Positions 108 to 21,061 of a stretch of DNA of 23,440 nucleotides are shown in pieces. The notes beneath the pieces were generated by a model. The model was not told where the DNA came from. It ran no database searches and worked only from the letters and a program-made list of their open reading frames with translations. Within the stretch, counting starts at the first letter, position 1. Every line of letters begins with the position of its first letter. The stretch is taken from positions 1-23,440 of the IMG/VR virus record IMGVR_UViG_3300009506_001233; one strand, 5' to 3'. Position numbers and translations under genes: made by a program. This stretch comes from a virus.

Positions 108-162
108 GGGACGATGCGTGACATTCAGTTGTTAAGGTACTATTTTAACCGGAGGCCACATA

Positions 163-1098
163 ATGTCAAGCGCCAAATTGACCCTCTCCCAGGCCATTGA
201 CGGCTTTTTCCTCGATCGTCGCCTCAAATTCACCGAAGCCACCGTCGAAAACTACCGTTGGGCCTTCGACAAATTCGCCGCCCATTGGAAAGACGATCCC
301 GCCCTCGAGGCCATCACCGCTGACGACGTGCGCCACTTCCTCGACGACCACCGCAAGCTCTCCAACACGTCCCGGCGCAACATGCACTCCGTGCTCTCCA
401 GCCTCTGGACCTGGGCCATAGAAGAGGGCTACGCTGAGCAACATATCCTCCGCCAGGTCACCGCGCCCGATCCCGAGCAGCGCGTCGTCATTCCGTTCAG
501 CCAGGCCGACGTCAAGGCGATGTTGAAAGCCTGCAACAAGAGCACCAGCTATGCGCGCCCAGGCAAAAAAGCATGCGCCAACACGCGCCCTAGTGCGGCC
601 CGCGATCGCGCCATTATTATCCTGCTTGTCGATACCGGCATCCGCGCCAGTGAACTCTGCAAGCTGCGCATCCAAGATCTCGACCTGGGCAATGGGCGAA
701 TGAAAGTACTGGGCAAGGGTGTCAAGGAGCGGCTCGTGCCGGTGGGCCACACCTCGGCCCGCGTCCTGTGGCGCTACCTGGCCACTCGCCCCGAGGCCAA
801 ACCCATCGATCCCGTCTTTGTTGCCGATCGCACTGCGGTGACGCCATTTGGTCGCCATACTCTGCATCGTCTGATCAAGCGCATCGGCGATCGCGCCGGC
901 GTCATGCACGCCCATCCTCACAGATTCCGCCATACGTTCGCTGTGAATTTCCTGCGCAACCACGGTGATGTCTACTCCCTACAGGCCATTCTCGGTCATA
1001 CGACCCTCAAAATGTGCCAGGTGTACCTCGCCCTGGCCCAGCAGGACACCGACAACGCCCACCGGCGGGCTTCTCCTGCGGATAACTGGCGACTATAA
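163..1098 (+). CDS. int: Tyrosine recombinase / phage integrase
   Basis: This 311-residue protein is a full-length XerC/D-like site-specific recombinase that would integrate and, with a helper, excise the phage. An N-terminal SAM-like core-binding domain (about residues 5-100) precedes the catalytic domain. The active-site set is complete: Arg161 (GIRASEL), Lys185 (LGKGVKER), His253 and Arg256 (HRFRH), His279 (LGHTTL) and Tyr288 nine residues later. A GGAGG ribosome binding site at 151-155 lies 7 bases before the ATG. It is the only + strand gene in the window and converges on the tail-fibre gene, as is common for integrases at the end of a late operon. A Pro/Lys/Arg-rich segment (about 126-147) before the catalytic Arg resembles integrases I associate with Chloroflexota; that impression is weak. 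A LexA-like operator lies upstream. Confidence 0.93.
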   Translation: MSSAKLTLSQAIDGFFLDRRLKFTEATVENYRWAFDKFAAHWKDDPALEAITADDVRHFLDDHRKLSNTSRRNMHSVLSSLWTWAIEEGYAEQHILRQVTAPDPEQRVVIPFSQADVKAMLKACNKSTSYARPGKKACANTRPSAARDRAIIILLVDTGIRASELCKLRIQDLDLGNGRMKVLGKGVKERLVPVGHTSARVLWRYLATRPEAKPIDPVFVADRTAVTPFGRHTLHRLIKRIGDRAGVMHAHPHRFRHTFAVNFLRNHGDVYSLQAILGHTTLKMCQVYLALAQQDTDNAHRRASPADNWRL

Positions 1099-20510: not shown

Positions 20511-20626
20511 CGTTCCTCTCCTTTACCCGGAGGCGGCGCGGTCGATGTCGGCTTGGGGGGGTAAGCCACTCGAAACCGCGCCCACCTCCGTACACACGCC
20601 GGGGCGGAGACTCCGGCTAGTGCCAC
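20511..20626 (-). promoter_or_regulatory. Gene-free 5' region of the late operon with a large hairpin
   Basis: This stretch lies between the intrinsic terminator and the holin gene and holds no gene. On the - strand GGAGG-TG-GGCGCGGT pairs with ACCGCGCC-G-CCTCC (plus-strand 529-542 with 575-589 of the 20.5 kb block), a stem of about 13 bp, and encloses a GGCTT/AAGCC hairpin with a C7 loop (G7 at 20555-20561 on the + strand). No -10/-35 pair was found. The hairpin ends about 20 bases before the holin ribosome binding site. It may be part of the leader of an antiterminated transcript or a packaging (cos) region. Confidence 0.45.
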
Positions 20627-20671
20627 AAAAACAAAAAGCGCCGTCTCTGGTTCCTCACCAGAAACGGCGCT
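20627..20671 (-). terminator. Strong intrinsic terminator before late genes
   Basis: On the - strand a 15-position stem (AGCGCCGTTTCTGGT with ACCAGAGACGGCGCT, one G:U pair; plus-strand 20637-20651 and 20657-20671) with a 5-base GAGGA loop is followed by TTTTTGTTTTTG. It would terminate RNA from the promoter at 21033-21061 before it reaches the holin gene. This implies that late-gene expression needs read-through or another promoter. Confidence 0.88.
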
Positions 20672-20680
20672 CCCTTCCAG

Positions 20681-20815
20681 GCTACGCCGACTTATGCGAT
20701 TGCCTGCCTGCGCGGTGATCCGCGCGCTCTCTACTCGTGACTAGGCAGCCCCGCCCGTGTAGGGCACTTTGCCTAGTCGGCGCGTCTTTGCTCCATCGAG
20801 CCACGGGCCGCGCCA
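20681..20815 (-). ncRNA. Candidate structured RNA leader (no gene)
   Basis: The region between the small gene's stop and the terminator contains several perfect stems: GACTAGGCA/TGCCTAGTC (20739-20747 with 20770-20778) enclosing GCCC/GGGC; GCGCGG/CCGCGC (20710-20715 with 20720-20725); GGCGCG/CGCGCC (20779-20784 with 20809-20814) enclosing GCTC/GAGC. An 8-base long-range pair (CGCCGACT at 20685-20692 with AGTCGGCG at 20775-20782) competes with two of these. Six-frame reading shows no credible gene. It could be an RNA antitermination element, a regulatory leader, a small RNA released by the terminator, or structured DNA of a packaging site. Confidence 0.5.
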
Positions 20816-20823
20816 ATAACTAA

Positions 20824-20994
20824 TCAAAGTCTCACCCGAACCTCGATCTTGATCGGGTCACGCTTGTTGGCCGGATCCACGTGCACGATCACCTGCCCCG
20901 GCCTCGACAATAACCGCGCCAGCTCGCTCGCCCGCTTGCGCAGCTCTGCCACCATCCGTTCCACCAACTCCATCGCCATTTCATCAACCCTCAT
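20824..20994 (-). CDS. Small charged protein behind the SOS-box-like promoter, function unknown
   Basis: A 56-codon gene follows the promoter at 21033-21061. The product begins MRVDEMAMELVERMVAELRK, a helix with hydrophobic spacing, continues RASELARLLSRPG, and ends in alternating strand-like residues (QVIVHVDPANKRDPIKIEVRVRL). It is both acidic and basic, with no membrane segment. The ATG at 20994 gives 56 residues but lacks a good ribosome binding site. An in-frame ATG at 20979 has GAGGG 8 bases upstream and may be the true start (51 residues). I recognise no family. Being the only gene between this promoter and the terminator, it could be a regulator of late expression, but this is inferred from position only. 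Confidence 0.6.
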   Translation of the reverse strand: MRVDEMAMELVERMVAELRKRASELARLLSRPGQVIVHVDPANKRDPIKIEVRVRL

Positions 20995-21012
20995 TCGTGC
21001 AGACGACGGGAC

Positions 21013-21028
21013 TAGAACATCCGTTCCA
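21013..21028. promoter_or_regulatory. LexA/SOS-box-like operator at the - strand promoter
   Basis: TAGAACATCCGTTCCA matches the integrase-side site TAGAACATACGTTCTA at 14 of 16 positions and keeps GAAC-N4-GTTC (21015-21026). Its position, from about +1 to +12 of the predicted transcript, is where a bound repressor would block initiation. The regulator is not in this window, or is host LexA. Confidence 0.65.
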
Positions 21029-21032
21029 GTGC

Positions 21033-21061
21033 ATCATATCATATGTGCATCTTCCCGTCAA
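21033..21061 (-). promoter_or_regulatory. Near-consensus sigma-70-type promoter
   Basis: On the - strand TTGACG (21061-21056) and TATGAT (21038-21033) are separated by exactly 17 bases, each with a single mismatch from TTGACA and TATAAT. The predicted start is about 21026, inside the LexA-like operator. The promoter fits in a 72-base gap between two genes of the same direction, one of few places in the window where a promoter is evident. Confidence 0.8.

Follow-up and report, generated by a model that had tools for sequence, protein, structure and literature searches.

The window, that is, the whole 23,440-base viral contig analysed here, is a fragment of a temperate siphophage that carries an integrase (163-1098, plus strand) and a minus-strand run of late genes comprising the holin, TerS (assigned by position only), TerL, portal and capsid, and continuing into the tail genes. 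Its early region lies off the contig, so checks of upstream genes refer to the genes of the window, and the scans of genomes for host prophages matched nothing. Ahead of the late run, and on the same strand, lie a promoter, an operator over its start point, a small gene, a structured leader, an intrinsic terminator and a second structured element, in that order; the unit from promoter to terminator is called here the gate. A preliminary description of this DNA had listed a near-consensus promoter, an operator on the start point, a 56-codon gene, a textbook terminator and a further hairpin before the holin, and all of these were borne out by the analysis, the match of the operator to a LexA SOS box having been missed at that stage.

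The promoter (21061-21033, minus strand) reads TTGACG-17-TATGAT with a TG before the –10 hexamer. It was the sole minus-strand σ70-type match of at least 9/12 between 1.3 and 23.4 kb, a single match being near chance level, as shuffles yielded 1.1 such matches per 5.4 kb. The case for this promoter rests, therefore, on the comparison with the related sequence L005, which was 86% similar to the window across the gate region and kept the hexamers (TTGACT-17-TATAAT), with a diverged spacer and almost unchanged bases past the –10. Over the start point lies an SOS (LexA-type) box, GAACGGATGTTC (21015-21026), found at the same site in L005 and contained in a wider dyad, ACTGGAACGGATGTTCTAGT (21030-21011, minus strand), which could form a hairpin at the 5′ end of the RNA; this dyad is invariant in L005 and gives no covariation evidence. 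In Firmicutes and Actinobacteria the LexA motif reads GAAC-N4-GTTC (PMC3323433) and, judged by its sequence, the window operator is a match to this box. Since the operator matches an SOS box, DNA damage is the likely trigger of the gate promoter. The motif occurred twice in the window against 0.21 sites expected, once at the gate promoter and once as GAACATACGTTC (94-105), beside the start of the integrase and its promoter matches. Divergent promoter matches were noted close to the latter box, at 118-146 (plus strand) and 169-142 (minus strand).

The small gene (20994-20824, minus strand) comprises 56 codons, or 51 if translation begins at the in-frame ATG at 20979, which may be the actual start. 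Its product was 91% identical to that of L005, with dN of 0.040 and dS of 0.33, and the resulting dN/dS of 0.12 indicates that this ORF is a real protein gene under purifying selection. The protein was modelled with modest confidence (pLDDT 74) as a helix and a beta hairpin. No significant match to any family, antirepressors included, was obtained for it in libraries that may omit some antirepressor families.

Downstream of the small gene, the leader together with the terminator folded with a z of -5.7. The leader was predicted to form a pseudoknotted RNA (20814-20739, minus strand) composed of stem P1 (20814-20809/20784-20779), stem P2 (20778-20770/20747-20739) and a pseudoknot pairing 20808-20802 with 20759-20753, followed by two more hairpins between 20725 and 20679 (approximately 20725-20710 and 20706-20679) whose stems are invariant in L005. 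Over alignment columns 1-186, the window and L005 leaders differed by 11 substitutions and one gap, and these substitutions disrupted none of the 52 nested pairs and none of the seven pseudoknot pairs. Moreover, compensatory changes were found both in P2, where A-U became G-C, and in the pseudoknot itself, where G-C became C-G. Random placement of the same substitutions satisfied both conditions in 9 of 100,000 trials, a figure that is indicative only, the pseudoknot having been picked post hoc. The nested stems that had been described before the terminator thus correspond to a conserved structured leader, which contains a pseudoknot and not nested stems only.

This conservation comes from two sequences, those of the window and L005. 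A covariance search over relatives had also been proposed; the stems were kept in L005, but the model in use (R2, which replaced a predecessor, R1, with misplaced structure in its 3′ half) detected no convincing third leader RNA in the 51 sources searched. A pattern match in L053 was rejected as a chance hit inside a coding gene. No Rfam family matched at the gathering score, and only sub-threshold matches appeared with E up to 10; a search for tRNA and tmRNA returned none. The possibility that ribosomes enter the pseudoknot by programmed frameshifting or by stop read-through was also discarded, as the frame downstream is broken by the one-base gap in L005.

The leader ends in a very strong intrinsic terminator (20675-20633, minus strand) of 19 pairs and -28.9 kcal/mol, with a U-rich tail whose U tract extends to about 20626. 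Simple attenuation is disfavoured, since pairing upstream of this terminator brings a gain of no more than some 7 kcal/mol. The similarity between the window and L005 extends up to the terminator, beyond which L005 carries other late genes, so that a module border falls at this point. The interval between the terminator and the holin contains a second structured element of two hairpins (20623-20528, minus strand), conserved at positions 616-737 of L003, where the hairpins are kept and three pairs have changed on both sides. The L003 copy lies after a different holin and before the next gene, and the element could be either an RNA or a DNA site. The start of the L003 contig (1-165) presents another structured leader and terminator directly before a further holin-like gene. 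In the window, the holin (20510-20166, minus strand; PHROG 1299, 2.8e-8) is the first late gene past the terminator.

Relatives were collected by means of their TerL and the regions upstream were then inspected. L005 likewise carries a promoter and a strong terminator directly before its late genes, and in L010, L009 and L014 a promoter match is followed by an ORF encoding 39-68 residues, then by a short leader with a strong terminator, and next by a holin or membrane protein, which in L009 is preceded by an intervening LuxR/sigma-region-4-like gene. A weaker case was L008, in which the ORF spans 104 residues and the terminator is weak, and L003 shows the terminator only, its contig beginning inside the leader. 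Two other candidates were rejected, L043 for a promoter match inside an ORF and L037 for a unit without late genes downstream. Terminators of -25 kcal/mol or stronger numbered 15 in 866 kb of strand, and five of them fell at gates against about 0.01 expected in five 130-nt stretches, for a layout that was recognised after the fact.

SOS boxes with 0 or 1 mismatch were found at the gate promoters of the window, L005, L010, L009 and L008, a frequency to be compared with 1-7% of random stretches; the L014 gate was without such a box. A scan for SOS-box promoters recovered the genes of an S24 (LexA-type) repressor and of a Y-family polymerase, indicating that it does find SOS promoters. The same scan revealed L085, a record similar to the window in its portal, capsid and tail proteins. 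Its gate consists of the promoter TTGACA-17-TAATAT, the only late-strand match of at least 10/12 in 37 kb, with a perfect box 6 nt past the –10 and a second box, carrying one mismatch, within the spacer, and of a leader of about 130 nt without a gene, ending in a terminator with eight U. This gate lies between the head genes and the scaffold/capsid, not ahead of the holin; therefore, the gate is not always placed before a holin and the small gene is not essential to it. No S24 (LexA-type) repressor was found in the records of L085, L008 and L014. In the L085 record, another perfect SOS box, GAACATATGTTC, was observed at oriented position 30654, upstream of the integrase by some 500 bases, so that a box at the gate and another near the integrase are common to this record and the window.

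The distance between the terminator stem and the next start codon was 4 nt in L009 (if the TTG start is right), 26 nt in both L003 and L014, 34 nt in L010, about 45 nt in L085, 54 nt in L005 and 122 nt in the window. No usable σ70 promoter was found in the gaps of L014, L009 and L085; the matches in those of L003 and L005 preserved 7 and 6 of 12 positions and were not usable, and the one in L010 would start transcription within the holin gene. Consequently, where the gap is short, the mRNA of the next gene must cross the terminator. This need is less strict in the window since 122 nt are available there, and, even with a best σ70 score of 5 of 12, another promoter type could fit in this gap. 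Of the separate strong downstream promoter that the preliminary description had named as refuting its switch, the gaps of 4-54 nt showed no usable σ70 candidate. The transcript crossing the terminator could also come from far upstream.

Taken at the level of sequence, the recurring pairing of a promoter and a stop looks like a two-lock late-gene switch and not like a chance layout. The reading favoured here, to which a probability of roughly 0.55 is assigned, is that a promoter of late or structural genes has two controls, repression through its SOS box and a gating terminator that has to be read through. In the lysogenic state, GAAC-N4-GTTC over the start point would be occupied by a LexA-type repressor, either the host LexA or a phage repressor sharing its operator. 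Upon DNA damage the promoter would fire, yielding a leader RNA that encodes the small protein and ends at the strong terminator, and holin, terminase and virion genes would be made only when RNA polymerase passes this terminator. In the window phage, the polymerase might be rendered terminator-resistant by the pseudoknotted leader RNA or by a factor acting on the RNA or on the promoter. The late-gene antitermination switch suggested by the preliminary description holds for the layout, which recurs in L005, L010, L009, L014 and L085 with no usable promoter in the short gaps, whereas we infer LexA binding, the start of the late transcript at the gate promoter, and regulated read-through with its agent, as opposed to leakage. 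Neither of the candidate actors that it named, the small protein and the structured RNA, is general, given that the RNA was found only in the window and L005 and that the L085 gate has no gene.

In phage lambda, the pR′-tR′ region places a promoter, a leader and an intrinsic terminator before the late genes, and read-through depends on Q. The gates of the window, L005, L009, L010 and L014 show the same succession, in which lysis and virion genes are preceded by a promoter with its leader and intrinsic terminator; unlike lambda, the window has an SOS box on the promoter, its leader contains both a small gene and a pseudoknotted RNA, and no match to a Q-like antiterminator was found among its upstream genes, the early region being off the contig. 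A predicted LexA-type box over a late promoter also recalls P3 of phage GIL01, a late promoter with LexA boxes in a phage in which LexA acts on both early and late promoters; GIL01, however, employs gp7 and the activator gp6, and the cited passages describe no leader terminator, whereas the window has one (PMC6182141).

The main rival, possible but unlikely, is a LexA-controlled effector cassette in which the 56-residue protein would act as an antirepressor or SOS-induced regulator, as do Tum of 186 and GfoA/GftA of Gifsy, from its own promoter and terminator, the late genes being switched on otherwise. Small antirepressors under LexA control and encoded outside the immunity region are established (PMC3121763), and they share with the window an SOS-controlled promoter and a small protein located outside that region. 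The purifying selection on the small ORF would fit such a role, and the succession of promoter, ORF and terminator is the usual layout of a moron. However, the window differs from the Gifsy and 186 antirepressors in its type of LexA box, in the lack of a family match and in a terminator coupled to late genes. The cassette is weakened by L085, which has the same SOS promoter and terminator with no gene between them, and by L014, L010 and L009, in which the next gene starts 4-34 nt past the stem, so that the terminator effectively belongs to the leader of that gene. Furthermore, the small proteins of the different gates were not detectably homologous, their alignment being weak; the model for that of L010 was poor (pLDDT 59), and a fold search against the PDB gave no significant match.

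Within the favoured reading of a repressed promoter and a gating terminator, the pseudoknotted leader could plausibly be the antiterminating agent, but only as a local one, confined as it is to the window and L005. That it constitutes a new cis-acting processive antiterminator fired by DNA damage, so that LexA cleavage makes an RNA and this RNA opens the late operon, is a tentative proposal that we regard as doubtful. Its parallels would be HK022 put, the B. subtilis EAR element and canT of Tn916 (PMC11658703), with which it shares a structured leader RNA, conserved here in two sequences, that possibly acts in cis on RNA polymerase. The window leader differs from them in having no Rfam family match.

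Alternatively, the terminator could serve as an insulator that stops stray transcription into toxic late genes in the lysogen, late expression after induction being due to leakage from a strongly derepressed promoter or from upstream with no antitermination. Terminator T1 of Tn916 acts in this manner (PMC11658703), and insulation would explain why the terminator is conserved with no need for an actor. This explanation is improbable, however, because stems in the range of -25 to -36 kcal/mol, backed by a long U tract, would be expected to let little transcription leak into a late run of some 19 kb, and because it leaves the structured leader of the window and L005 unexplained. Finally, a trans-acting small RNA as the terminated product, for which the prophage RNA IsrK of Gifsy-1 offers a precedent, being made by termination while read-through yields the downstream mRNA (PMC4825925), is very improbable here, as the structure was not found in other phages.

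If a promoter locked by an SOS box and a terminator does operate as proposed, a group of temperate phages would, in one compact gate, place its late or structural genes under SOS control at the promoter and make them depend on a read-through step at a leader terminator. It would also provide a testable leader RNA outside the described RNA families, and the signature formed by an SOS box, a leader, a strong terminator and a late gene could be used to seek further gates in uncultivated phages.

Some other elements were observed among the records. A perfect 20-base palindrome, AACTGGCAACGTTGCCAGTT, is present in L009 (1389-1408) upstream of the gate promoter, and L030 (844-920) carries a promoter-like sequence with a strong terminator within about 50 nt, followed by a zinc-finger-like ORF. 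In L056, L084, L089, L103 and L116, tandem GAACN4GTTC boxes were located immediately upstream of one gene, the L056 copy of which matched Peptidase S24 (LexA/CI type); from their sequences, these genes may encode phage repressors that regulate themselves through LexA-type operators.
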